A stretch of DNA of 64,000 bases, taken from the NCBI GenBank assembly GCA_034520215.1, contig JAXHNR010000002.1, positions 204,060 to 268,059 of the forward strand. Reading direction: 5' to 3'. The translations under genes were made by a program, and so were the position numbers. This document shows positions 40,460-55,259 of the stretch, piece after piece; position 1 is the stretch's first letter; each line of letters starts with the position of its first letter. This stretch comes from Candidatus Krumholzibacteriota bacterium. GTDB lineage: Bacteria; Krumholzibacteriota; Krumholzibacteriia; Krumholzibacteriales; WJIX01. The notes beneath the pieces were generated by a model. The model did not search any database. It was not told the DNA's origin and saw only the letters and a program-made list of their open reading frames with translations.

Positions 40460-41608
40460 CTAATCCGGCCTTCCCAATGAAACGCCGAGAGCCTCGGCGG
40501 TCTTAACGGTCTGCCCGTCTGGATTTACGTGTTTTAGTTCTTTGATAGCTGATTTAATATCAACTGATTTGATGGCTCGCCCTTTAAGACACACCATCTT
40601 GCCGAATTTTCCCTCAGCGATGAGGTTTGCCGCTTCTACTCCGAATCTTGTAGCCAGTATACGGTCGAATGTGGTTGGAGTTCCGCCGCGCTGAAGGTGG
40701 CCCAGGACCGCTACGCGGGTTTCGAGCCCCGTGCTTTGGCAAATTCTGTCCGAGACCCAGTTACCAAGCCCGCCGAGTTTGCCTGGAGTTCCGTCCGGGC
40801 CTGGAGGGGTTACATAAACCTTGTTTCCTCCTTTTGGATAAGCGCCCTCGGAAACCGCGACGATGCTGAATTTCTTGCCGGCACGTTTGCGGTTATGTAT
40901 ATGTTTACAAATCTCATTAATCTCAAAGGGAATTTCCGGTATAAGGATGACGTCGGCGCCTCCGGCTATTCCAGCCTCCAGCGCTATCCATCCGCAGTCT
41001 CTCCCCATAACTTCCAGTACCAAAACCCGGTGGTGGCTTTCGGCTGTTGTGTGGAGTTTATCAAGGGCGCATGTGGCGCACGCGACAGCGCTATTGTAGC
41101 CGAAGGTGACATCTGTCACACCGAGATCATTATCTATAGTTTTAGGGACACCAATTACGTTTACGCCTTTTTCTCGAAGCGACTGGGTTATCTTCATTGT
41201 TCCATCACCCCCGACCGCGACAACAACATCAATTTTCTGCTTCTTTATATTCTTTACGATATCCGGGGTAACATCTTCAAACACAACGATCCCATCCTTT
41301 TTTACCGGATAACGCAGAGGGTTGCCTCTATTGGATGTTCCGAGTATAGTCCCGCCGCGGAGCTGAAGGCCGCCAACATCGCTTGAGGATAATTCGATGA
41401 ATTCATTTTTCAGCAGGCCGTCGAATCCGTCCATAATGCCGAATACCTTCCAGCCGTATATATTTACAGAAGCGCGGACAAAACCGCGTATGACGGCGTT
41501 CAGCCCCGGGCAGTCTCCTCCTCCCGTAAGGATGGAAACTCTCTCTATCTTCTTTCTCCGTGCTTTTCTGTTTTCAGGTCCATGACTGTCTCTTTTCGCA
41601 GATCCCAT
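40460..41608 (-). CDS. pfkA: 6-phosphofructokinase
   Basis: 382 aa from an ATG at 41608 with AAAGGAG upstream; a more distal in-frame start at 41728 is not supported. PFK blocks: ILTGGGDCPGLNAVIRG (about 29-45), VVAVGGDGTMK (about 125), VIGVPKTIDNDLGVTDVTFGYNSA (split, about 146-169), LVLEVMGRDCGWIALEAGIAGGAD (about 198-221) and LGHLQRGGTPTTFDR (about 308). It phosphorylates fructose 6-phosphate in glycolysis. At the two donor-selecting positions it has Gly (GGDGT, ATP-like) and Lys (PKTIDND, common in PPi-dependent and group III enzymes), so ATP versus PPi use is open. Length fits the longer group III type. Convergent with the GAF gene. Confidence 0.94.
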   Translation of the reverse strand: MGSAKRDSHGPENRKARRKKIERVSILTGGGDCPGLNAVIRGFVRASVNIYGWKVFGIMDGFDGLLKNEFIELSSSDVGGLQLRGGTILGTSNRGNPLRYPVKKDGIVVFEDVTPDIVKNIKKQKIDVVVAVGGDGTMKITQSLREKGVNVIGVPKTIDNDLGVTDVTFGYNSAVACATCALDKLHTTAESHHRVLVLEVMGRDCGWIALEAGIAGGADVILIPEIPFEINEICKHIHNRKRAGKKFSIVAVSEGAYPKGGNKVYVTPPGPDGTPGKLGGLGNWVSDRICQSTGLETRVAVLGHLQRGGTPTTFDRILATRFGVEAANLIAEGKFGKMVCLKGRAIKSVDIKSAIKELKHVNPDGQTVKTAEALGVSLGRPD

Positions 41609-42246
41609 ATTAGCTCCTTTCGATTTTCCCGACTGCTTGAATATTCCGGAACAAAACGCAGACCGTAATATTGACGCAACGGCGTTTGAGCCGAAAGGAG
41701 ACATGCCCTTTCTAACTTTGCGGGGCACGCCTCAAAATGCCATAAAAGCATTATATATTATATACCTGAAGAATTCATCAAAATGTTGCGTAAATCAAGA
41801 ACAAGGATAATAGAATATAGCTGATAGAAAAAAATCCGGAGAAAACAACATCTTTTTATTCAGAATCGATCGCGTGAAGGCTGTTTTTTGAGCGCAAATT
41901 TCTAAATATTTTGCATAGGACTATAGGCAGGGTGCATTTTGTTTCTCTTTCAACTTGAGAATTGACGCCCCCTAAGCTTCACTGAATTTTTTTTAAATTA
42001 ATAAAATATGGAATAACTGGTTATTAACGTTAGAAATATAGAAGTTCAGCCCGAGACGGGAATTGCCTGGGTGTATCTGCTCATGACTTAAGTCCCAGCT
42101 TATGGCACAGGATTTGCAAATGATTCAACCAAGAAATTGAAAAATGAGTGTTTATACCTAGGAATTTTTAATAAATTCCTCCGCCGGCAATGAACGCGGC
42201 AAGAAATTTGAGCGCGAAGCGGCGGAAAGAAAGGGGGGAAGATTGA
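41609..42246. other. Regulatory gap before the DUF11 cluster
   Basis: 638 bp with no gene recognised. It includes a small AATGC/GCATT inverted repeat near 41737, AT-rich stretches around 41970-42010, and a strong sigma-54-type promoter at 42103-42118. The roughly 500 bp upstream of that promoter is long enough for activator-binding sites, but I could not recognise a specific one. Confidence 0.55.
42103..42118 (+). promoter_or_regulatory. Sigma-54 (-24/-12) promoter of the DUF11 cluster
   Basis: TGGCAC, five bases (AGGAT), TTGCA: a full match to the sigma-54 core with correct GG-to-GC spacing, 128 bp before the first DUF11 gene. Transcription would start near 42129. Confidence 0.75.
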
Positions 42247-42735
42247 ATGAAAACTGTTTTTAACCTGATCGTTTTTTCTCTTCTTCTATCAGTTTCAGTA
42301 AGCGCTTTTGCTCAGGAGCCTTTGCTCAGGGGCAGCATGGAAGCACATAAAATAGTAGCTGATAAAAGGAAAGATGAAACTGCCGTTCCGGCAGATAAGG
42401 TCGTACCGGATGATGTTGTCGAATATACGCTGAGATACCGTAACGAGGGGAAAAATTCTGCTTCGGGCGTGGAGCTGATTGGTCCGGTGCCTCCGGGAAC
42501 TGCCTATATCGACGATTCCATATCGAGCAGCAGAGTCTTTACGGCATTGCTTAGTATTGATGGCGGAAAATCTTATCATCAACCGCCCGTCACATTTACT
42601 GTCGTGAATGAGGACGGCAAAGAAGAAAAAAGAGAAGCAACTCCCGAGATGGTTACCCACTTGAAGTGGAAAATGAACGAGGACCTGGAAGCCTCGGGCA
42701 TTGTCACTGCCTCATACCGTGTGCTGGTAGAGTAA
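42247..42735 (+). CDS. Small secreted DUF11-domain protein
   Basis: 162 aa; ATG behind AAAGGGGGG. Signal peptide (about 1-22, cleaving near AFAQE). The rest is a single DUF11-type Ig-like domain: a VEYTLRYRNEGKNSASGVELIGPVPPGTAYI stretch (split, about 57-88) has the characteristic N-x-G-x-x-x-A-x-x-V and D/P-x-G-x-x-Y patterns, followed by the TPEMVTHLKWKM strand pair seen at the end of such domains. First gene of the cluster and directly downstream of the sigma-54-type promoter. It may be a periplasmic or surface subunit that pairs with the larger DUF11 proteins; function unknown. Confidence 0.82.
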   Translation: MKTVFNLIVFSLLLSVSVSAFAQEPLLRGSMEAHKIVADKRKDETAVPADKVVPDDVVEYTLRYRNEGKNSASGVELIGPVPPGTAYIDDSISSSRVFTALLSIDGGKSYHQPPVTFTVVNEDGKEEKREATPEMVTHLKWKMNEDLEASGIVTASYRVLVE

Positions 42736-42845
42736 CTCGATAGGGGAGCGTATGATGTTATCCGGAGTGACAATTTTTCGGATAACGGAAAGAAATCTAG
42801 GGATTCGATTTAAAAAAAGCGGCTATTTACAAGGAAGGTGAAATT

Positions 42846-45548
42846 ATGGTAGGAAGGAAACTGGCTGGCCCGGCGATTATGGCCTTTATCGCATTATCGC
42901 TTATGATCGGCACTTCGGCAGAGGCTCAAACTCCGGCTGGAACAACGATACGGAACCAGGCCTCCGCGACATTTCAGGATCAGATAGGTAATACTTATAC
43001 GGCTACTTCAAACGAAGTTATTACTATAGTGCTGCCCGTATACGGTGTTTCAGTTCTTCCCGATGATTCCGGAGAAACACCGCCTGTAACACCGTCGATG
43101 GTGCAGACGGCCATACCGGGCCAGACGATGTATTACAGCTATAATCTTTCGAACAGCGGTAATGATGATGACACTTATTCCGTTGAACCTCTTCTCGATG
43201 GTGCTAATACAACCATGGCTATCGGGATAGGCGATGTTACTATATACCAGGATTTGAACTTCAACGGAGTTCTTGACGGCGGAGAACCCGCGATTTCTTC
43301 AGGGGGTACTCCGGGGAATATCGGTCCTGTAGCCGCGGGGACTACCGTTAATCTCCTGGTATCTTATCAAGTTCCGGCGGGCGCTTCTGCCGGTGAAGCA
43401 GGTTACGTTGGAATGCGGGCAACTTCAGCAGGCGACGGCTCACAGGTTGACACTGGAAACTATCACAGAACAGACGTTGTAAGTGATGCCTCAGTTACGG
43501 CTTCAATGTCGGCAGTACCGGCCAGTGTGGATCCGGGAAATACAGCGGCATATACTATAAACGGAGCGAATGTGGGTAATGACACTGCCAATGGTGTAAC
43601 GGTTCCGTCCGTAAGCCTTACCGGTGTTCTTATTTACGATATTCTTCCTACAGACCCCTCGAGCAGTAATCCGCTTGCTTTGTCAGGTTCTCCCTCGGGA
43701 GCTCCTTCAGGCGGCACTGTGCTCTATTTGCCGGCGGGAAGTTCTACTGCCGGATCTCCTGAAAGCTGGAACTGGTCACTCAGCAGCGCCGCGGGAGATA
43801 TAGCTGTCGCGTACATAACAAACGGAAATATGGCAATAGGGCAAAACTATAATTTCAGCTATGATATTGTTATTCCCTCCGGTATGCCCGCCGGAATAAT
43901 CAATAATGACGCCTCCGTGGCGTATGTGGACAACAATCCGGGCACACCGGATCCGACCCAGGTTACAACCAACAACACGCAGATCAATGTCAATATTAAC
44001 TCTGATGTGCTGATTGGTCCGGACGGATCACCGGGAGCGGGAACACCGCCTGATTATGATGATGATTCACAGGCAGTAGCACAAGCATACGCGAATACAT
44101 CGGTCGATTTTATTAACACAGTGATAAATAACGGGAATAGCGCTGATGAGATAAATATTATACTGGATGGTACTTCAACCATCCCCGCCGGGTGGAGCGT
44201 TCAGTTCTTCAGAAACGACGGGTCAATCCCCCTTTCTGATTCGGGAAGTGACGGCATAATTGATGTCGGCTCTGTAGCCTCCGGCGCGTCGGTTGATTTT
44301 ATAGTCAGAGTTTTGATTCCGGGCGACGCGGCTTCCGGCGGTCCATATACGGCAGTTATTAGATCACAATCCACTAATGACCCGACGGTATCGAACCTGA
44401 CGACAGATGAAATCACTCAAGTTAATCCGTCCGTGGTAGATATCGGAAATTATGACGGGGCGCCCGGTATAAACGATACTCCGGTAAACCAGAACACCGA
44501 TCCCGGGAACAATGTCGATTTTGCTTTAGACATTGTAAATACAGGCGGTTCGAGTGACAATTACAACCTTTCAGCAAATTATCCGGCCGGTTGGGGAGTG
44601 GTTTACTACGAAGACACTAATAATAACGGTCTTCTTGACGTGCCGGAATTGACAGTTATAACAGGTATCGGACCGGTAGTTGCCGGCGGAGAAGTTTCTG
44701 TTATAGCGCGCGTAACTGTACCCGGCGGTGAAGTCCCCGGAGTCAATAATATCGGTTTAACCGCGACTTCAAATAATAACGGGGCTGTTTTCGATGAGAT
44801 TATAAATACGGTTACTATTAATAGTGCAGCTTCAGTTACGATCAGTCCCGATAGAAGTGGGACGGGGACTGCCGGAGGCGCAATAAGATACGATCATACT
44901 GTTACAAACACGGGAAACGTCGATGACACCTTTATGCTGAGTTTTGTAAGTTCAAACGGATGGAGTTACTCCTTCTTTGATACTTCGAACAATCCAATCA
45001 GCTCGGTAACATTGACAGCCGGAACAGCTGAGAATATCATCGTGCAGGTTTCTATTCCGGGCGGAAGTACCAATGGTACGGTGGAAAACGGTACGGTTAC
45101 TGTTACCGGAAACGGGACCGCCGCGGCGGACTCGCTACTCGATGTTACTACGATTGTAGCCGGCAATCTTGTGCTTAACAAATCTGTTAATCCCACGGGG
45201 GACCAGGTTCCCGGAACTGAATTGACTTACAGAACGGACTATTCCAATGTGGGGACCGCTGATTTGGATACGGTCGTAATTTATGACGCGATACCCGGCT
45301 GGACTCAATATCGTGTGGGTTCAGCGAATTCCGGAACTCTTACCGCCGGCATTTCATCAATTGCAATAGAATTTTCGAATGACAGCGGAACGACCTGGAC
45401 CTATACACCCGCAAGCGGCGCCGGTGGCGCTCCAGCGAATTTCGACGCGACTGTTACCGACATCCGGTGGGTTTTGACGGGAAGCCTGGCCGGCGGTGAC
45501 GGCACTACGGATGGTGTTGGCTTTGTAGTCAGGATCATCGCGGAGTAG
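42846..45548 (+). CDS. Secreted multi-domain DUF11 repeat protein
   Basis: 900 aa; ATG behind GGAAGGTG, signal peptide cleaving near AEAQT (about 27). The N-terminal module (PAGTTIRNQASATF..., ending near VSVLPDD, about 75) is shared with the next protein. About six DUF11-like Ig modules follow, recognised by N-x-G repeats: YSYNLSNSGNDDDTY (about 100), YTINGANVGND (about 238), TVINNGNSADE (about 425), LDIVNTGGSSDNY (about 562), HTVTNTGNVDDT (about 682) and RTDYSNVGTADLD (about 800). EF-hand-like loops (YQDLNFNGVLD about 132; YEDTNNNGLLD about 587) suggest calcium. Thr/Ser/Asn/Gly-rich, typical of extracellular adhesive or structural proteins. No anchor or sorting tail is seen. A strong hairpin follows. 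Confidence 0.85.
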   Translation: MVGRKLAGPAIMAFIALSLMIGTSAEAQTPAGTTIRNQASATFQDQIGNTYTATSNEVITIVLPVYGVSVLPDDSGETPPVTPSMVQTAIPGQTMYYSYNLSNSGNDDDTYSVEPLLDGANTTMAIGIGDVTIYQDLNFNGVLDGGEPAISSGGTPGNIGPVAAGTTVNLLVSYQVPAGASAGEAGYVGMRATSAGDGSQVDTGNYHRTDVVSDASVTASMSAVPASVDPGNTAAYTINGANVGNDTANGVTVPSVSLTGVLIYDILPTDPSSSNPLALSGSPSGAPSGGTVLYLPAGSSTAGSPESWNWSLSSAAGDIAVAYITNGNMAIGQNYNFSYDIVIPSGMPAGIINNDASVAYVDNNPGTPDPTQVTTNNTQINVNINSDVLIGPDGSPGAGTPPDYDDDSQAVAQAYANTSVDFINTVINNGNSADEINIILDGTSTIPAGWSVQFFRNDGSIPLSDSGSDGIIDVGSVASGASVDFIVRVLIPGDAASGGPYTAVIRSQSTNDPTVSNLTTDEITQVNPSVVDIGNYDGAPGINDTPVNQNTDPGNNVDFALDIVNTGGSSDNYNLSANYPAGWGVVYYEDTNNNGLLDVPELTVITGIGPVVAGGEVSVIARVTVPGGEVPGVNNIGLTATSNNNGAVFDEIINTVTINSAASVTISPDRSGTGTAGGAIRYDHTVTNTGNVDDTFMLSFVSSNGWSYSFFDTSNNPISSVTLTAGTAENIIVQVSIPGGSTNGTVENGTVTVTGNGTAAADSLLDVTTIVAGNLVLNKSVNPTGDQVPGTELTYRTDYSNVGTADLDTVVIYDAIPGWTQYRVGSANSGTLTAGISSIAIEFSNDSGTTWTYTPASGAGGAPANFDATVTDIRWVLTGSLAGGDGTTDGVGFVVRIIAE

Positions 45549-45560
45549 ATTTTTAGGGTT

Positions 45561-45597
45561 GGTTGGTGAAGGTGGATTTACTCCACTTTCACCAACC
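45561..45597 (+). terminator. Large hairpin after the 900-aa DUF11 gene
   Basis: A 16-bp stem with a single G-T wobble and a 5-base loop starts 12 bp after the stop. No U-run follows (next bases GCGGCTT), so it may reduce rather than end transcription into the downstream barrel gene, or protect the mRNA 3' end. Confidence 0.6.
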
Positions 45598-45719
45598 GCG
45601 GCTTAAATCAAAATTGAAGTATAGAAAACAGTTTGGCGGCAATCGACATTTGCCCCTCGCGTAAATGGAATGGCAAGCGAGAACGCGTGAGGGAAAAAGG
45701 CGAACGGTTATAGCTATCA

Positions 45720-48700
45720 GTGTCTATTAATTTTGTTATGTTAAAGAGTTTCAACAGCCGGCTGGGAAGCGCCGTGGAATACAGGAATGAGAAGAAATTA
45801 ATCCGCGAGGGGTTGCTTAAACGGAAAACCCTTTTTTTGATGATATTCTTTGTCCTCTTTTGGTTCCCTTCAGGCATTTCAGCTCAGATTCCGCCCGCAG
45901 GCGAAACTGTATCGAGCCAGTCATACGCCACATATTCTTTTGAAGGAAGCAGTTGCTCGGCTTTTTCAAATGAAATCCTTTTAGAGATATTGCCCATTTT
46001 TAATCTCCTTGTCTTACCGGACGGGACGGTTTCCTCGCCCGCTGTAATCGACTCAGCTTTCAGCGGGGAGAAAGCGCTTTTCGAGTACACAATTACAAAT
46101 TCGGGGAATACTCCGGGTGAATACACTCTGAATATAATACAGCTTCCCCCTTCAGACTTTTCCTTCCGGGCAGCAGAGCTCTATATGGATGATAACAAAA
46201 ACGGAGCGGTAGATCCCGGTGAGGATGCAATAAATTCATCTGTTCTTCTGGATCCTTCAGAATCTTTAGCGGTCATCCTCGAGGCGGAATTGCCGGCGGG
46301 GGCCCGCGGAGGAGAAACCGCTCATTTGAATTTGGAAGTTCTGTCTCAAAGTGACACGTCGGTGACCGACTCAGACAACGTAGTCAGAGTGGCGGCGCGT
46401 GAAGAAGCTAGAATATCACTTCTTATGAGTTCTGACAGGACAACTGTCATGCCTGAGGATAGCGTTACCTTTACCGTTGATTACTCAAACGAAGGTGACA
46501 GGGAAGCCAGGGATGTAACAATTACAGAGTTTATTGATTACAGAGGGAATATAGAAAACACCGAATTTATAGAGGGTTCCGTTGTCAGCACATTACCAGG
46601 TGAAATAGAGTTTTATGATGTTACTTATCCTGATTGGATTAAATCACAACCGCAGGCGAGCGACATAAAGGGAATTCGGCTGAAACTGGATTATTTGCCT
46701 CCGGACGCGGCTGGAAGTTTTTCTTTTATGGTCAGAGTCAATGAAGATCATGAAAGTGGCCAGATCGAAAATTCCTCCTTCGCGGAGTACACCGCCGGTG
46801 ATTCAGCGGACTATAATGTCTATTCAGATAAAATTTCAGTTTTTGTCGGAAGAAAAAGTTCGATCTCAATCGGGCCTTTAAGGCCGGAGATGATGGAAAA
46901 TGAAAATGACGAAAATGTAATTACTATGAACGTGGATGGAAGCACTGCAAGTTATACCTTCTGGCACGAAGTATTAAGTGAAGGCAATTTCGTCGATACA
47001 GTCGCGGTTTCTATAAGCGATTCGGTGCTTATCCCGGATAGGTGGAGTGTGGAATTTGTTGACTCAGGCGGCACTGTGATAACAGAGGGCTCCGGTTATA
47101 CGGCGATCATAGGCGCTCTCGGTATTGAAGAAAGCGCCACAGTTGGTATAAGGTATAACGCGGCGCCTGAAGCATTCAGGAGTTTCACCGGCAGCACCCT
47201 GGGGCTTGAAGTGAGAGCAAATTCACTGGTTGATGTTGATTCACAGGATATGGTGACCGATCTTTTCGTCAAAACCGATTTACCCCTTGTTTCAGTTGAG
47301 CAATCGATCAAAGAGCCAGTCGCTTCAATAGGGGATGTTTTAAGCTGCATTCTTACTGTAAATAATCTCACGGAGGATACATCAGTTGACAGCTTGACAG
47401 TGGTGGAGACCCTTTGTCCCGGACTCGGTTTTGCCGGAGGAAGTATCGAGCCGACAATAAACGGCAACAAGCTTAGCTGGGATATTGAAAGCCTCGAGGC
47501 AGGTGAAAAGAAAGAAATAGTATTCAGGGTGAGAGTCAAAGCTGGCCAGCAGCGGGGAAGACTCGTCAGCCGGGCAAAAGTATATGGAGTGTCTGAATAT
47601 GGAGAAAAGACCGCGGCGGGTCCCGCGTCGGCTTCAATCAGAATCGTGGAAGGGATTTTCACGAGAAAGGGTATTATAACGGGGAGTGTGTTTTTCGATT
47701 CGGACAGCAGCGGAAGACGCGGTGAGAATGAGGACGGAATCTTTGGAGTTTCCGTGTTTTTGGAGAATGGAACTTACAGCATTACTGATTCGTCGGGGGC
47801 CTATTCAATTCCGGGGGTAATCGAAGGAACTCATGTTTTGAGAGTTGATCCGGAGTCATTGCCCGACACCTTGATTTCGAGTGAAACCGGGCATTTTGGA
47901 ATGGGAGTGGGCGGTGAAGCGATTGTTGATTTACCCCCTTCGGGAAACCGCCGCGTTGATTTCCCGCTCGTATTGAAAATGAACGAACAAAGAGAACACC
48001 CTCCGTCTAACCGCGGGGAGAAAGATGTAAAGGAGTATGGGAAGAGGAGAACTTCAGCGGTTAAAAATTCAGCCGGAACTTACGGGCCGGCAGTAAATGC
48101 TGAAATTGAGGGAAAAGAGAAAAACTATATTAAAGCTGCCGATAACAGAAGAATTGATGTAGAACTTGCAGCGCCGGAGGATTCTCAGGTAGAAGAATCT
48201 CAACCAGATACTATGCTGAAAGGGACAAAGGGGGAAGAAAGGTTTATCAGCGGGACCGAAGTATGTTCTGAAATCGTAGAACCCGAAGAGGGTGCCCTCT
48301 TCAGGCAAAGAGACAGAGTAGAAGTTGTAGTAAGTTCGCCCCTTGGTTCGGTTGTGAATCTTTACGTGAATAATATTCCTGTCGGCAGAGAAAAGATAGG
48401 GAAAAAGAAGATTGATATAGGCAGAAAAACTATCGTTCAAGCCTTTTACGGAGTCAAGATTGAACCGGGTGAAAATGAACTGCTGGTCGTTTCCAAAGAG
48501 TATGGAGGGAAAAAGAATACTTGTGTGAGACATGTCTATCTTGCCGGGAATCCGGCCCGAATAATTCCCGAAAAAGCGGAGGTTTCAATACCCGCCGACG
48601 GGAAGAGTTCTGAAGAACTCGTATTTCTTGTAAAAGACAGAAATGGTCTCTCAGTAAGAGACGGGATCTTCGTTGATGTGGAAGGACCAGGCGCGCTGAT

Positions 48701-51251
48701 TGAAGGGATCGACGCCAATCCCCAGAGAAACGGTGTGCAGGTCGCGACAGCAGGCGGTAAGGCGGTTATAAATATACCTCCCTCAATTGAGACTGAGAAA
48801 ACGAGAATATCCGTCCGCTATGATGATATACGCGCCGGTTCGCTCATCTCCTACGAATCTCTTATTCGCGACTGGTTCCTGTTTGGTTATGGAGAGACGG
48901 ATATCGGCATAAATAATATAACGGGCAGCGGCGCCTGGGACCGTTCGGGAAGAAGCTGGCATAAAGGCCTTTTCGCGGAAGGGAAAATCGCTTTTTACGG
49001 TCAGGGGGAAATAGCTCAGGGACACCTTATGACCGTCGCGGTCGATACTCGTCCAGCCGGGTATGACAAGCTGCTCGACAGGATTGAACCCGAAAAGTTT
49101 TATCCAATATACGGAGACGCCAGCCGCCTTAGATTCAACTCTTCTTCGAGACGCGGAACTTATCTAAAGATGGAGCACAAGAAGTATTCGGCGATGTTCG
49201 GTGATTTCAGAACAGAGTTGGGCGGAATGCAGTTTAATCGCTATGAAAGGACTTTTACGGGATTTAAAGGGAAGGCCGAATTCAAAGGAGGAAGTATAAA
49301 TGCTTTTGTTACCAGAACCGATCAGGCCACGTTTCAGGAAGAAATCCCGGCAGATGGAACGAGCGGGTTCTATTTCCTGGAGAATTATCCTCTTATAGAA
49401 AACAGCGAAAAAATAAGAATAGAGGTTCGTGACAGGTATCAGCCGGAGAAAATAGTCAAGGTGGATTATAAGGCCGTAAACAGAGATTACGATATTAATT
49501 ATAACGACGGCACAATTCTCTTTAAGGAACCGCTGCCCACGGTTGATGAAAATCTAAATCCGGTAGTGATAATCGTCAGCTATGAAAGCGCCGATTCAAA
49601 GGACAGCAATTTTATATACGGAGCAAGATATTCAATTTCTGTGACCGATAGTTTAAAAGCCGGCGTTACCGCTGTTCTTGAGGAGGAGGGAGATGAAAAT
49701 TCGTCACTTTTCGGGGTGGACTTGAAAGGAAAAATACTGCCCGGCGTCAGGGTCGAAGGAGAATTCGGCCACAGCGAAAAATTCCTTCTCGGGGCGGGAG
49801 ATGCCTTCAGGGTTAAATTTGAAGGGAGAAAGAAAAACTTTCCGCTCTGGAATGTTTACTACAGGCGAATAGACAAGACATTCTTCAATCCTTCGTTTTC
49901 AGGCGGCAAGAATGAACTTGGAAGCGAGAAGTTTGGAGCGGGGCTTGACTGGAAGCTGAACACAAAATTTTCCCTGAAATCAAAGGGGTACACTCATAGT
50001 TTTATGGAAAGGGATGAGAAAAAGAAATATTTGGATGTAGCGGGCGTTTACAGAAAAGGCTCGCTGCGCGGCGAGGCCGGCCTGGCGGGGATCACCCACA
50101 GCAGCATAACAGACCCGCCGCATTCGGCTGTTATGCTGACAACTTCAGTTTCGGCTGAGAGAAAAGGATTCGAAGGGGAAGTGACATACGATCAGAAATT
50201 ATCGGGAATGGAGGTAGAAGAATATCCCAACCGTCTTGAAGGCAGGTTGTCTCGAACTATCTGGAAAGATATAAGCGCTGAATTGATACATGAATACCGT
50301 ACGGGAAGCAGAAGCGGCACAAGACACAGGACACGATTCGGAGTGGAGTCTAAGATAAACAGGAATCTGAATGTCTATTCCAGGTACAGTCTCGAAGGAG
50401 CGATGAGCGGCAAGCGCGGACAGGCGACAATCGGACTTAATAACCGTTTCAGTTTTTCGAATGACCTATCGGGAACGATCGCGGCGGAAAGGCTCTCGAC
50501 TGTTTCAGGGGTTGAAAAGAATGATTTTACTTCACTGTCTGTATCGGGAAATTACACTCCGGATAAAAAGGACTACCGGCTTAAGGGTGATTATGAAATC
50601 AGGTTTGACAGTGACAGAACAAAACACCTCTTTTCCGCCGGAGGGATAAAGAGAATGGATGACAGGTGGTCGGGACTTACCAAGGGTGATATCTGGTTCT
50701 CCGACGAGGATAATAAAAGTGACAGAGTGAAGGCCAGTTCGACCTTCGGGTTGTCTCTGCGTCCAGAATCAGCAGACGCGCTCGTTCTTCTGGCATTTCT
50801 TAAAACGAGATATGAAAAGAACAGCCCGGCCCATCCCGGCGGTGTTGACAAGGAGCTTCTCTTTTCGACCGAAGCCGTCTATGATCTTAATCCGGAATGG
50901 AAACTCGAGGGAAAAGTGGCCGCGAAATGGGTAAGGAACACTTTCAGGAAATATTCGGCAAGCGCGTCCACATTTATGTATCAGACCCAGGTGATAAAAC
51001 TTCTCCCCGGCGAATGGGATGTTACGCTGACCGGAAGGATTGTCAGCCAGCGTGAAACGGGTACCGTGAGATTCAGCGCGGGTATTGAAGCCGGAAAGAT
51101 CGTCGCTAAGAATATCTGGCTCGGGGCCGGTTATGACTTCTCGGGACATCAGGATGACGGTGTCGAAGAAAATGATTTCCTGCAGAATGGATTTCATGTT
51201 GGAATGAAGATGAAATTCAATGAAAAACTGATGAATTATTTTTACAGATAG
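45720..51251 (+). CDS. Giant DUF11/SdrD-type protein with outer-membrane beta-barrel
   Basis: 1843 aa from a GTG; an ATG at 45738 is also possible and no start has a good ribosome site. A signal-like hydrophobic stretch ends FPSGISAQ (about 58). Layout: N-terminal module shared with the previous protein (to about 100); DUF11-type Ig modules (about 115-640), including YMDDNKNGAVDPGED (about 155); SdrD-B-like GSVFFDSDSSGRRGENEDG with FSIP-type turn (about 652-710); a charged linker; an invasin/Big-1-like module VSIPADGKSSEELVFLVKDRNG (about 955); then about 760 residues of amphipathic strands from GKIAFYGQGEIAQGH (about 1085). That last part includes FYPIYGDASRLRF, IPADGTSGFYFLE and IRIEVRDRYQPE, and looks like a large outer-membrane barrel. 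I infer an outer-membrane anchor or channel that displays, or serves, the other DUF11 proteins. Confidence 0.82.
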   Translation: MSINFVMLKSFNSRLGSAVEYRNEKKLIREGLLKRKTLFLMIFFVLFWFPSGISAQIPPAGETVSSQSYATYSFEGSSCSAFSNEILLEILPIFNLLVLPDGTVSSPAVIDSAFSGEKALFEYTITNSGNTPGEYTLNIIQLPPSDFSFRAAELYMDDNKNGAVDPGEDAINSSVLLDPSESLAVILEAELPAGARGGETAHLNLEVLSQSDTSVTDSDNVVRVAAREEARISLLMSSDRTTVMPEDSVTFTVDYSNEGDREARDVTITEFIDYRGNIENTEFIEGSVVSTLPGEIEFYDVTYPDWIKSQPQASDIKGIRLKLDYLPPDAAGSFSFMVRVNEDHESGQIENSSFAEYTAGDSADYNVYSDKISVFVGRKSSISIGPLRPEMMENENDENVITMNVDGSTASYTFWHEVLSEGNFVDTVAVSISDSVLIPDRWSVEFVDSGGTVITEGSGYTAIIGALGIEESATVGIRYNAAPEAFRSFTGSTLGLEVRANSLVDVDSQDMVTDLFVKTDLPLVSVEQSIKEPVASIGDVLSCILTVNNLTEDTSVDSLTVVETLCPGLGFAGGSIEPTINGNKLSWDIESLEAGEKKEIVFRVRVKAGQQRGRLVSRAKVYGVSEYGEKTAAGPASASIRIVEGIFTRKGIITGSVFFDSDSSGRRGENEDGIFGVSVFLENGTYSITDSSGAYSIPGVIEGTHVLRVDPESLPDTLISSETGHFGMGVGGEAIVDLPPSGNRRVDFPLVLKMNEQREHPPSNRGEKDVKEYGKRRTSAVKNSAGTYGPAVNAEIEGKEKNYIKAADNRRIDVELAAPEDSQVEESQPDTMLKGTKGEERFISGTEVCSEIVEPEEGALFRQRDRVEVVVSSPLGSVVNLYVNNIPVGREKIGKKKIDIGRKTIVQAFYGVKIEPGENELLVVSKEYGGKKNTCVRHVYLAGNPARIIPEKAEVSIPADGKSSEELVFLVKDRNGLSVRDGIFVDVEGPGALIEGIDANPQRNGVQVATAGGKAVINIPPSIETEKTRISVRYDDIRAGSLISYESLIRDWFLFGYGETDIGINNITGSGAWDRSGRSWHKGLFAEGKIAFYGQGEIAQGHLMTVAVDTRPAGYDKLLDRIEPEKFYPIYGDASRLRFNSSSRRGTYLKMEHKKYSAMFGDFRTELGGMQFNRYERTFTGFKGKAEFKGGSINAFVTRTDQATFQEEIPADGTSGFYFLENYPLIENSEKIRIEVRDRYQPEKIVKVDYKAVNRDYDINYNDGTILFKEPLPTVDENLNPVVIIVSYESADSKDSNFIYGARYSISVTDSLKAGVTAVLEEEGDENSSLFGVDLKGKILPGVRVEGEFGHSEKFLLGAGDAFRVKFEGRKKNFPLWNVYYRRIDKTFFNPSFSGGKNELGSEKFGAGLDWKLNTKFSLKSKGYTHSFMERDEKKKYLDVAGVYRKGSLRGEAGLAGITHSSITDPPHSAVMLTTSVSAERKGFEGEVTYDQKLSGMEVEEYPNRLEGRLSRTIWKDISAELIHEYRTGSRSGTRHRTRFGVESKINRNLNVYSRYSLEGAMSGKRGQATIGLNNRFSFSNDLSGTIAAERLSTVSGVEKNDFTSLSVSGNYTPDKKDYRLKGDYEIRFDSDRTKHLFSAGGIKRMDDRWSGLTKGDIWFSDEDNKSDRVKASSTFGLSLRPESADALVLLAFLKTRYEKNSPAHPGGVDKELLFSTEAVYDLNPEWKLEGKVAAKWVRNTFRKYSASASTFMYQTQVIKLLPGEWDVTLTGRIVSQRETGTVRFSAGIEAGKIVAKNIWLGAGYDFSGHQDDGVEENDFLQNGFHVGMKMKFNEKLMNYFYR

Positions 51252-51272
51252 CAGGATCGGAACGAAAAGAAG

Positions 51273-54200
51273 ATGAAAAGAAGAAAAAATAAATTTCCAA
51301 TCAGTGTAATATACGCCGTGTTCTCTTTGCTGGTTGTTTGCCTGGCAATTCCGGTAAGTTCGGGCGAGCTCATTTCCGGAGGAGGTTTTGAATCAGGGTC
51401 TTTCTCATCCGGCTGGGTTCATAACGCCGGCAATTTGTTCGGAAACACAAACCCTTCCTGGGCCGATCATGTTGTCGTAGCGGATCTTCCATACAGCGGA
51501 AATTATTCAGCACTGCTTGGGTTTAAGTATACCGCGCAGAGACGGAACCGTTTCGGCTTTATGTACCAGGATATAGCGGTCCCGGCGAATATATCGAGAG
51601 CGGTATTAAATTTTAAATTCCGTCAACAGGGGTATGACGGGTTGAACTATGATCCCTTCACGGCGGAAGTGAAAAACCTTTCCGGAAGCACTCTGGAAAC
51701 GATAATCAGTTATTCCTTCTCGGAATGGAATAATCAATTTAAGGACAGCGGCTGGATAGATGACGACGGGGCAGGCCCGGCGGGTGTTGATATGACATCG
51801 TATGCGGGGCAGGATATCAGAATATATTTTCAGCAGATAAACAGCTGGGATAATCAATATGAGACATGGACCTTTATAGACGATGTTTCTTTTGTATATA
51901 AAAAGTTTGTAGATCTTACGGTTGATTTTAATGGGGAAGATGTCTTCGGCGATCCTGGAAGCGGAGACGGGGGATATTCGCTGCTCAGCGGAAAAGGGGG
52001 AGAAACGCTTGTCTACAATTTAGATGTCGAAAACGAAGGACTCGATTCAGACTCCTATGCCATTACAGTTTCTCCACCTTCGAGTTGGACGGTATTAGTG
52101 AATTATCAGGGAACTGACTATTCGCCTCCGTGGACAACCCCCGCGTTGGCGCCCGGAGAAGATCTGTCGGCCGAAGTAAGAATAGATATCCCAGAGGGTC
52201 AAGCGGCGGGAAAGTATTTGACTGTGCTTGACGCTGTTTCTACTTCAGCGGGCAACAGGTTCGACAGCGTTACGCTGGGAACGTATGTTGTGCCCTCTTT
52301 CTATCTCGCGGACCTCGCTATAGATGACAACGGCTTCGGAATAATAGATCCCTCTGGAGGCGGAGGGATATCTTATAAAGAAAGCCCGGCTGACACGACG
52401 ATTTCTTATGACCTCGAACTTTTAAACGGCGGGATTGAGGCAGATTCCTTCAGAATACGGTTTTCCCCCGCCGACTATCTTTCTTGTGTAATTGAGGAAA
52501 ACTCAATTACTCACAGCGGCCAGTTTACGACGGGACCTGTAAACCCCTCGGAGACAAAAGAATTTACTCTTAAAGTTACAATACCCAATGGCATAAGGGG
52601 AGGAGATTATAAGAGTTTCGTTTTTGCCCAGTCTTTGAGCGACACACTTAAAAAGGACGGAGTCAGCGCTGTAACAAGAGTGATAGCTCCCGCCGTAGAT
52701 GTTATAATAGGCGGTTCGGGTGATGATATTGTTGATGCCTCGGGCTCCGGGCTCGGAGGAAGCAGTACGATTGCAGGGACAAGAGGAAACACTGTCAGCT
52801 TTCCCGTGACGCTTCAGAATGAAGGTGGGGTGGCGGATTCGTTCAGTGTAGACTGGAACTCGCCGGGAAACGATTGGTCGGCAGTAATCAAAGACGGAAC
52901 ATCTGATCATAATTTCCCATGGACGACTCCGGTATTTGAACCGTTCAGCGGGAAAAACTATTATTTGGCGGTGACAATTCCAGCAGGAGCGGGATACGAT
53001 ACGTATAATTCACTTCTTGATTTTGTGAGCATCAATGAAAGTAATATATCGGAGAGCGTTACCGCTTCGATAAGCGTAACTTCGGTAAATGAAAATGATC
53101 TTCTTATAGATGGAAATGGAAATGATACATTTGGTCCCCTCGGTACCGGGTTGGGAGGGAGTTCGCAGAAGACCGCGCAGCCGGGTGATACCTTGACCTT
53201 TCAGATAGAGGCCCAGAACGAAAGCGGCGAGAATCTGTTTGATTTGGCGTGGACAACTCCCGCCGGATGGGAGGTTGTAATAGGAGATTCATCGTCGACC
53301 CTGTCGGGGGTGCCGTCTGGAATTTATACTCTTGAAGTCAGAATTCCAGCCTCGTGTACTGGAGGGACATTCGATATCATTATTGATGGAATGAAAACGA
53401 ACAAAAAATACTTGGTTGACAGTGTTAGGGGAAGAGTAATCGTTTCTTCTCCGCATATTGTCGATGCTCTTATAGATGGAAATGGAAACGAAATCTTCGG
53501 CGCTCCTGGAACGGGCGCCGGAGGACACTCGATTCAAAGCACTATAGGGGGACAGCGCGTAAATTTTACGCTTGAACTTCAGAATCAGGGTGGTGAAGCG
53601 GAAAGCTATACCGCTTCATGGAACACTTTTTCCGGTTGGAGCGCTTCTGTCGAAGGCGCGTCATCCGGATATACTACGCCGGATATTCCGCCTGGGGGCG
53701 CGGACCTCTATACATTTGAAGTGATTATTCCGGCATCCGCGGAAGAGGGCGATTATAATTACATTATTGATTTTGAATCGACAGTTGATTCAACGAACGC
53801 CGAGAGTGTCACTGCCGGCGTGCATATAAATCAGCCGCCCCGCGTAGACCTTGTAATAGAGGCAAGCGGAAACTATCTGTATGGCATCGAGGGTTCCGGG
53901 GATGGAGGGTCTGCTCTTTGTTACGGCGGGGCCGGCTCTCTCGTAACAGCGTCGCTGGAGGTAGTAAACAGGGGAGGATTTCCCGACTCCTTCGTAATAA
54001 CCTGGAGTCCGCCCGCGGGATGGCCTTCGGGATCTGTTGTCCTGTCAGACGGAACGGATGATTATTCTTCTCCTTTTGTAACGAGGGTTCTCGATTCCGG
54101 CAATTCTGTAATTTATACTGTGAAAGCGGCTGTTCCGGTTAATGCCGATCTTAGAAACAGGCTGATAATTAACGCGGAAGGTTTATCGCTGGATCTTGAA

Positions 54201-55259
54201 GACAGTATTCTGCTTGAGATAGGGACAGGATGTGTATTTACCGGAAGAGTGTATGAAGATTCCAATCATGATGGAATATGTGGAATTGATGAAAAAGGGT
54301 TTGAGGGGGTCGAAGTGGTTCTGAGTGATCCAGCCGGAGAGATAAAGACGCTTACACGAGCTGGCGGGAATTTTCTCTTCGAAGAAGCTTCAGATATCAG
54401 CAGAAATATTATCGAGAAAACCCCCGCCGGAATGATGTCTGTTACTCCGGATACTGTCAGTATGGCTGCCGCGGGTGCCGGAGACACAGTCTGGGTATTT
54501 TTCGGCGACGTAAGGCTATCGTCTATAATGCCGGTTAGCAGCAAAAACGCGCCCGCGGGAGGGATAGTCGATATAGCGCACACAATAACAGCGGGTACGG
54601 CCGGGCAGGCGTCTCTTGACGCGGGAGTTCCCGTGAGCTGGACGGCAGTATTTTACCGGGATCAGAATCAGGACGGCGTGCTGGACAGCGGTGACACAAG
54701 ACTCACCAGCTCGGATCTCTCCCTGGATCCGGCAGTACCCGGAAGTGATATAGTTCCAGTGATAACAAGGATATTTGTGCCGTCCTCGGCTCCGGCTGGA
54801 AACAGTTTTGAGATCGAATTTATTCTAAGGCAAACTCTGAGCGGAACCGCGTTTGTCTCTGAATCAAGTGTCACGAGCAGTGTTGTTATACTGGCCAGCG
54901 CGACAGGTATGATGAATCTTGTCAAAGAAGTGGATCTGGCGCGGGCGAGACCGGGTGAAATAGTAACATACGCCATAACTCTTTCCAATCCGGGTGTAGA
55001 AGGCGTAAAAGATATAGAAATAGTTGATCCTGTTTCAGAATCTGTAGATTTTGTTACAGACGCTTACGGCGCGGAGCGAGACATTGCCTGGACAAGCGGC
55101 GGCGCTACCGCCTATTTTACAGCGGATACTATGGACGCGGACGAGGGGATGTACGATTTATCAGATAGAAAGCTTCGGGTTATACTGTCCAGACAAAATC
55201 CGTTTACACTCGAAAGCGGCCAGGAGGGAATAATAGAATACAAGGTACGAATAAAATAA
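51273..55259 (+). CDS. Secreted protein with six tandem Gly/Asp-rich modules, SdrD-like and DUF11 domains
   Basis: 1328 aa, 21 bp after the barrel gene, so co-transcribed. Signal peptide about 1-31. Residues about 32-205 form a carbohydrate-binding-like jelly-roll (NSWDNQYETWTFIDDVSFVY closes it). Then six modules of about 120-135 residues begin near 212, 346, 474, 608, 729 and 858, each opening with D-x-x-[IV]-D-x-[NS]-G-[ND]-[DE]-type text (for example LIDGNGNDTFGPLGTGLGG) followed by an N-x-G Ig-like half. An SdrD-B-like module with YEDSNHDGICG (about 990) and YRDQNQDGVLD (about 1128) precedes a last DUF11 module (LVKEVDLARARPGEIVTY, about 1215). No transmembrane anchor or sorting tail. 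Likely an extracellular calcium-stabilised filament or surface-layer component; function inferred only from architecture. Confidence 0.82.
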   Translation: MKRRKNKFPISVIYAVFSLLVVCLAIPVSSGELISGGGFESGSFSSGWVHNAGNLFGNTNPSWADHVVVADLPYSGNYSALLGFKYTAQRRNRFGFMYQDIAVPANISRAVLNFKFRQQGYDGLNYDPFTAEVKNLSGSTLETIISYSFSEWNNQFKDSGWIDDDGAGPAGVDMTSYAGQDIRIYFQQINSWDNQYETWTFIDDVSFVYKKFVDLTVDFNGEDVFGDPGSGDGGYSLLSGKGGETLVYNLDVENEGLDSDSYAITVSPPSSWTVLVNYQGTDYSPPWTTPALAPGEDLSAEVRIDIPEGQAAGKYLTVLDAVSTSAGNRFDSVTLGTYVVPSFYLADLAIDDNGFGIIDPSGGGGISYKESPADTTISYDLELLNGGIEADSFRIRFSPADYLSCVIEENSITHSGQFTTGPVNPSETKEFTLKVTIPNGIRGGDYKSFVFAQSLSDTLKKDGVSAVTRVIAPAVDVIIGGSGDDIVDASGSGLGGSSTIAGTRGNTVSFPVTLQNEGGVADSFSVDWNSPGNDWSAVIKDGTSDHNFPWTTPVFEPFSGKNYYLAVTIPAGAGYDTYNSLLDFVSINESNISESVTASISVTSVNENDLLIDGNGNDTFGPLGTGLGGSSQKTAQPGDTLTFQIEAQNESGENLFDLAWTTPAGWEVVIGDSSSTLSGVPSGIYTLEVRIPASCTGGTFDIIIDGMKTNKKYLVDSVRGRVIVSSPHIVDALIDGNGNEIFGAPGTGAGGHSIQSTIGGQRVNFTLELQNQGGEAESYTASWNTFSGWSASVEGASSGYTTPDIPPGGADLYTFEVIIPASAEEGDYNYIIDFESTVDSTNAESVTAGVHINQPPRVDLVIEASGNYLYGIEGSGDGGSALCYGGAGSLVTASLEVVNRGGFPDSFVITWSPPAGWPSGSVVLSDGTDDYSSPFVTRVLDSGNSVIYTVKAAVPVNADLRNRLIINAEGLSLDLEDSILLEIGTGCVFTGRVYEDSNHDGICGIDEKGFEGVEVVLSDPAGEIKTLTRAGGNFLFEEASDISRNIIEKTPAGMMSVTPDTVSMAAAGAGDTVWVFFGDVRLSSIMPVSSKNAPAGGIVDIAHTITAGTAGQASLDAGVPVSWTAVFYRDQNQDGVLDSGDTRLTSSDLSLDPAVPGSDIVPVITRIFVPSSAPAGNSFEIEFILRQTLSGTAFVSESSVTSSVVILASATGMMNLVKEVDLARARPGEIVTYAITLSNPGVEGVKDIEIVDPVSESVDFVTDAYGAERDIAWTSGGATAYFTADTMDADEGMYDLSDRKLRVILSRQNPFTLESGQEGIIEYKVRIK

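Follow-up and report, generated by a model that had tools for sequence, protein, structure and literature searches.

A predicted sigma-54 promoter of a DUF11 surface-protein cluster is kept in related uncultured bacteria and adjoins a dyad that recurs before flagellar genes of relatives

Here we describe a predicted promoter of the sigma-54 type that stands before a cluster of DUF11 surface-protein genes in an uncultured Candidatus Krumholzibacteriota bacterium (GenBank assembly GCA_034520215.1), together with a dyad beside it that recurs at flagellar genes of related genomes. The window, by which we mean the whole stretch of DNA that was analysed, is 64,000 nucleotides long (contig JAXHNR010000002.1, positions 204,060 to 268,059). 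From sequence comparison, the -24/-12 core at 42103-42118 is predicted to be the working promoter of the DUF11 surface cluster and to have been maintained by selection. The best explanation of the whole, to which we give a probability of roughly 0.8, is a conserved sigma-54 promoter combined with a dyad-binding regulator that would belong to the flagellar circuit. The features of the region are as follows.

40460-41728, minus strand: divergent phosphofructokinase-like ORF that bounds the gap, named from its sequence and not by family search; its start ATG is probably near 41609
42083-42096, plus strand: dyad ATGACTTAAGTCCC, a two-mismatch copy of GGGAC-N4-GTCCC centred at about -39.5, a position shared by 11 of 20 order-level loci
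42103-42118, plus strand: sigma-54 -24/-12 core TGGCACAGGATTTGCA, an exact match, with GG-N8-TTGC kept in 24 of 24 orthologous upstreams
about 42129, plus strand: predicted transcription start, placed by core spacing
42129-42246, plus strand: predicted 5′ leader of about 118 nt, placed by the promoter position
42180-42226, plus strand: possible leader helix, TCCGCCG (42180-42186) with CGGCGGA (42220-42226), upstream of the ribosome-binding site
42247-42735, plus strand: first gene, 162 aa, DUF11, with a signal-like N-terminus judged by eye
42846-45548, plus strand: 900-aa repeat protein, no Pfam family above cut-off, weak DUF7507
45720-51251, plus strand: DUF11 protein of 1843 aa, with an SdrD_B-like match below threshold
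51273-55259, plus strand: 1328-aa protein with NEW3 (NPCBM_assoc), SdrD_B and DUF11

The original prediction had placed a core at 42103-42118, in a gap of 638 bp before a 13-kb cluster, and our reading agrees: the sequence is exactly as claimed with GG-N10-GC spacing, and we measure a gap of about 637 bp and a cluster of 13.0 kb (42247-55259). Its further claim, that such a match would seldom arise by chance, does not survive the counts when the motif is taken alone. A scan of the window at up to two mismatches returned seven core matches, one of them exact, against 10.5 expected from shuffles, and a scan of the 2.6-Mb genome at up to one mismatch returned 20, two of them exact, against 15 in the reversed control. 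Since both counts lie near control, the motif count was dropped as proof of a promoter, and evidence beyond the motif was required. The same counts favour the possibility that the core is a chance match and that the cluster is transcribed from a sigma-70-type promoter, for which one site, at 41978-42007 on the plus strand, could be proposed; however, that single sigma-70-like site compares with 2.5 from shuffles, and the conservation of the core at a single spacing in 24 of 24 upstreams makes this explanation very improbable.

It is this conservation upstream of orthologues that lifts the core above chance. A search with the first cluster protein gave matches in 38 of 98 genomes, and upstreams were read for 25 loci (L046-L070), of which 24 had sequence, L059 being cut; L071-L075 and the weaker matches were left out of this reading. 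At all 24 loci the 250 bp before the orthologue of the first gene contain GG-N8-TTGC; the opposite strand has it at one locus, the reversed motif occurs at two, and 200 dinucleotide shuffles of the 24 upstreams give a mean of 1.95 (maximum 8). When spacings from 2 to 15 were compared at these loci, only N8 stood out, the runner-up reaching 7. The four class-level loci, where protein identity is down to 36-38%, also carry GG-N8-TTGC, and the typical order-level form of the core is TTGGAACACCCCTTGCGC. The columns that define the sites are conserved by choice of pattern, so the controls and not a logo bear the argument. We conclude that 42103-42118 is almost certainly a sigma-54 promoter, and that the predicted promoter of the surface cluster is kept in related uncultured bacteria.

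The genome also encodes the machinery that such a promoter would need. The check for rpoN that had been proposed with the original prediction found the gene (PF04552, 210 bits), and its ORF contains ARRTVAKYR, which we take to be the RpoN box. PF00158, the family of enhancer-binding proteins (EBPs), has 19 matches in the genome, 15 of them strong (E ≤ 2.4e-38), and no match within C2:204060-268059, in agreement with the original prediction. With rpoN, the 15 strong EBP matches and the core in 24 of 24 upstreams, the sequence gives good support to the proposed control of the cluster by sigma-54. RNA polymerase with RpoN would occupy the -24/-12 core and wait, until an EBP encoded outside the window would open the complex.

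As to how far the promoter reaches, that all 13 kb are served by this one promoter is plausible only. The genes of the cluster are separated by 110, 171 and 21 bp, in none of which a forward terminator stood out convincingly, and joint transcription of all four genes is likewise plausible. The nearest named relatives of the 1843-aa protein (five loci) lie in MAGs labelled Latescibacterota, Krumholzibacteriota/Krumholzibacteriia or bacterium. Homologues of this protein in L042 and L043 have an OmpA domain; Pfam found none in the window's protein, which keeps a short stretch resembling the end of OmpA (NRRIDVEL), as if by internal deletion.

The predicted leader was also compared. Eight relatives have a CCTCC/GGAGG-type helix at a similar place. 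Helices of at least six pairs are present in 12 of the 20 leaders compared, where mononucleotide shuffling gives 2.45 on average and 6 at most, a comparison in which shared ancestry is uncontrolled. Nine of these 12 leaders bear the same kind of helix, namely the eight with CCTCC/GGAGG and the window's own. RNAalifold gave no consensus pairs on the leaders, and single folds of eight leaders had z-scores from -2.07 to 0.18 (-1.77 for the window's). At gathering score Rfam matched nothing in the window; for the gap it gave a single match, weak and unrelated.

Of the 20 sites found in the genome at up to one mismatch, 18 were read, L015 and L016 repeating the sequence of L008, with no control set for this reading: five lie inside long ORFs, nine have an ORF start within 400 bp downstream, and four have neither. 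The one-mismatch core TGGCACATTAATTGCT stands 187 bp before lptC (L017:1501-3014), which is followed by a gene for an LptB-like ATPase and then by rpoN itself, an arrangement that may place LPS export and the gene of sigma-54 itself under common sigma-54 control. Two other one-mismatch cores (L009, L020) stand 79 bp before a PilM gene and 41 bp before a gene with a type IV pilin methylation motif. The site TGGCACCCGGGCTGCA is present in three identical copies (L008, L015, L016), probably within a repeated element.

Beside the core lies a second element. Of 20 order-level loci, 11 have GGGAC-N4-GTCCC, at up to two mismatches, directly against the -24 box, ten of them at an identical offset (-20). 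Elsewhere in the same upstreams the rate of such copies is 21 per 10,190 positions. The dyad sits 5-6 nt from the core. A second, distal copy is found in 8 of 20 order-level loci, seven of these copies 42-46 bp above the proximal position and one at 33 bp; a distance of 42-46 bp is about four helical turns, and in most cases about 49 nt separate the end of the distal dyad from the core. A conserved dyad of the kind expected of an enhancer is thus found upstream of the core (in 11 of 20 order-level loci, distal in 8 of 20), and it is weak in the window, where the proximal copy has two mismatches and no good distal copy was found. Two-mismatch copies alone are no rarity in the window, with 10 against 18 expected, and the dyad is absent or degenerate in 9 of 20 order-level and in all four class-level loci. 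A loose dyad-core pattern was not enriched in the window's own genome, where it matched 10 times against 26 for the control. For an enhancer, a position of -39 would be unusually near. Such a dyad, in some relatives with its distal copy, would be the site of a specific regulator.

The arrangement of dyad and core recurs before flagellar genes. We built a sequence-only model of the two elements (R1) on 13 DUF11 promoters and scored at most 150 first-look candidates per genome. Among the 150 of 351 candidates so scored in its own genome, the window site has an E-value of 2.1e-7 and the next site 0.109. Across 25 order genomes at E ≤ 0.02, R1 returned the 13 training promoters and six others, where about 0.5 would be expected by chance; three of the six stand before flgF, one before cheR, and two elsewhere with half the module. 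FlgF and FlhA are found in the same 7 of 25 genomes, and the window's genome (G000) is without FlgF at 1e-20 and without FlhA at 0.001. When the flgF upstreams were read directly, the core was present in 7 of 7 genomes and the dyad in five (G003, G006, G008, G013, G016; missing in G004 and G023), the dyads of G008 and G016 coming from this direct reading and neither being an R1 match. At flgF the dyad lies about 3-4 bp nearer the core than at the DUF11 promoters. The association of flagella with the dyad has p = 0.044 with 13 dyads, partly assigned by eye, and p = 0.12 with the strict 11, relatedness being uncorrected in both, and is a hint only.

Because dyad and core are common to flgF, cheR (in one genome) and DUF11 promoters, we infer that the regulator is one of the flagellar circuit, and on these site comparisons the surface cluster and the flagella are probably under a shared regulator. 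It would couple surface proteins to motility, like FleQ in Pseudomonas. The DUF11 promoter is retained in the window's genome despite the missing flagellar markers.

Which protein would bind the dyad is a matter of weaker preference. That it is an EBP at all we put at somewhat under even odds, and we hold equally tentatively the specific proposal that a flagellar EBP binds the dyad, either the FleQ-like protein at L257:9642-11126, whose receiver is apparently degenerate, or its NtrC-like neighbour at L257:8166-9527. Both are retained in the non-flagellated window genome, and the L257 pair corresponds to a locus that in flagellated G006, G008 and G013 reads EBP-HK-EBP-FliA-like-EBP (FliA family membership confirmed in G006 alone), so that the pair flanks the HK-EBP-FliA block. 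The window's genome (L257:8166-11126) and G012 have no such block, and their two outer EBPs adjoin in a scar-like arrangement. GG-N8-TTGC sites are found upstream of the middle block in all three of G006, G008 and G013. The flagellar-EBP proposal also gains from the available parts of a report in which FleQ of Pseudomonas putida governs flagellar genes as well as the adhesin gene lapA (PMC5026340), and from the distal dyads, whose distance of mostly about 49 nt recalls the PrsR spacer averaging 62.8 nt (PMC1569441, available in part). However, both L257 EBPs have orthologues in dyad-less G005 and G012. The reciprocal best hits of the middle, third EBP are confined to flagellated genomes, a restriction that holds for the full sets, those of G003, G008, G013 and G016 being partial; this EBP is absent from dyad-keeping G000 and G011. 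NCBIfam gives neither L257 EBP a name above cut-off among the matches listed, and the four EBPs that were scanned, two of them own and two from G006, reach 314-440, below the TIGR02915 (PrsR) cut-off of 502.6. Assignment by phylogenetic profile, with full EBP sets for five genomes and partial sets for seven, failed. None of the own EBPs is distributed like the dyad: for 13 of the 15, a reciprocal best hit exists in each of the two full-set genomes that lack it (G005, G012), so that the profile points to no binder. No autoregulatory dyads were found at own EBP genes in the loci parsed (the 15 minus L026, L028, L030, L033 and L036).

A different binder would leave the core a sigma-54 promoter and make the dyad the site of a LuxR/NarL-type regulator of DosR-like specificity. 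That regulator would repress or assist from -40, with opening of the complex left to a separate EBP. We judge this unlikely. It draws on the identity of GGGACTAAAGTCCC / GGGACTTTAGTCCC with the core of a DosR gel-shift oligonucleotide in the available part of PMC5999986, the only paper in which the dyad spellings were matched. A GerE-domain protein in the window's own genome (L293, G000:C1:427300-429500) has KTVKN with the spacing of DosR K179, K182 and N183, and a site at -40 would suit such a regulator better than an enhancer. Among the 50 of 53 GerE matches read, however, the presence of a KTVKN protein does not track the dyad (9 of 13 genomes with it, 3 of 7 without, p = 0.25), and G011, with two perfect dyads, has no KTVKN among its two GerE matches. 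We know of no case in which DosR acts with sigma-54, which counts against this regulator too. L293 has no receiver family by Pfam, and just after its HTH stands a C-x-C motif that relatives share. A fuller version, in which a DosR-like KTVKN protein on a DosR-type palindrome gates sigma-54 promoters with an EBP and ties the DUF11 cluster to flagellar genes, the surface branch surviving without flagella, is less likely still.

Returning to the preferred reading of a conserved sigma-54 promoter with a flagellar-circuit regulator, several known systems resemble it. One view of sigma-54 is that it governs the exterior of the bacterial cell (Francke et al. 2011, PMC3162934); judging by the available parts of that review, its systems share with ours the -24/-12 core and surface genes, and here other near-exact sites precede PilM and LptC genes, whereas DUF11 clusters are unnamed in those parts and ours belongs to an uncultured lineage. 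PrsR and sigma-54 control PEP-CTERM genes, where, in the parts of PMC1569441 available, an upstream motif, sometimes repeated, and a -24/-12 core likewise occupy a large gap before surface-protein genes; unlike our GGGAC-N4-GTCCC at 5-6 nt from the core, with distal copies mostly about 49 nt away, the PrsR motif ends in TTTACA and lies a mean of 62.8 nt (SD 10.6) from the core. FleQ of Pseudomonas putida is, as far as PMC5026340 was available, one EBP for flagellar and adhesin genes, and here too there is an EBP with an apparently degenerate receiver; yet the window's genome is without FlgF and FlhA. With the DosR box of Mycobacterium tuberculosis the likeness is one of sequence, the palindrome of the test oligonucleotide being the dyad of some relatives (GGGACTAAAGTCCC), but the available part of PMC5999986 has no sigma-54 context, regulator family and phylum differ, and the window's copy is ATGACTTAAGTCCC. 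Among papers mentioning both sigma-54 and DUF11, as far as these were available, no title concerns sigma-54 control of DUF11 genes. What appears to be new here is a dyad abutting the -24 box that is common to DUF11 and flagellar promoters.

The predicted promoter, with a DNA site that can be tested, offers a regulatory handle on surface proteins of the DUF11 type whose function is unknown and whose lineage is uncultured. If a flagellar regulator binds the dyad, the DUF11 proteins probably act in a switch between swimming and attachment, and a promoter kept without flagella would show which part of the flagellar regulon serves surface biology.
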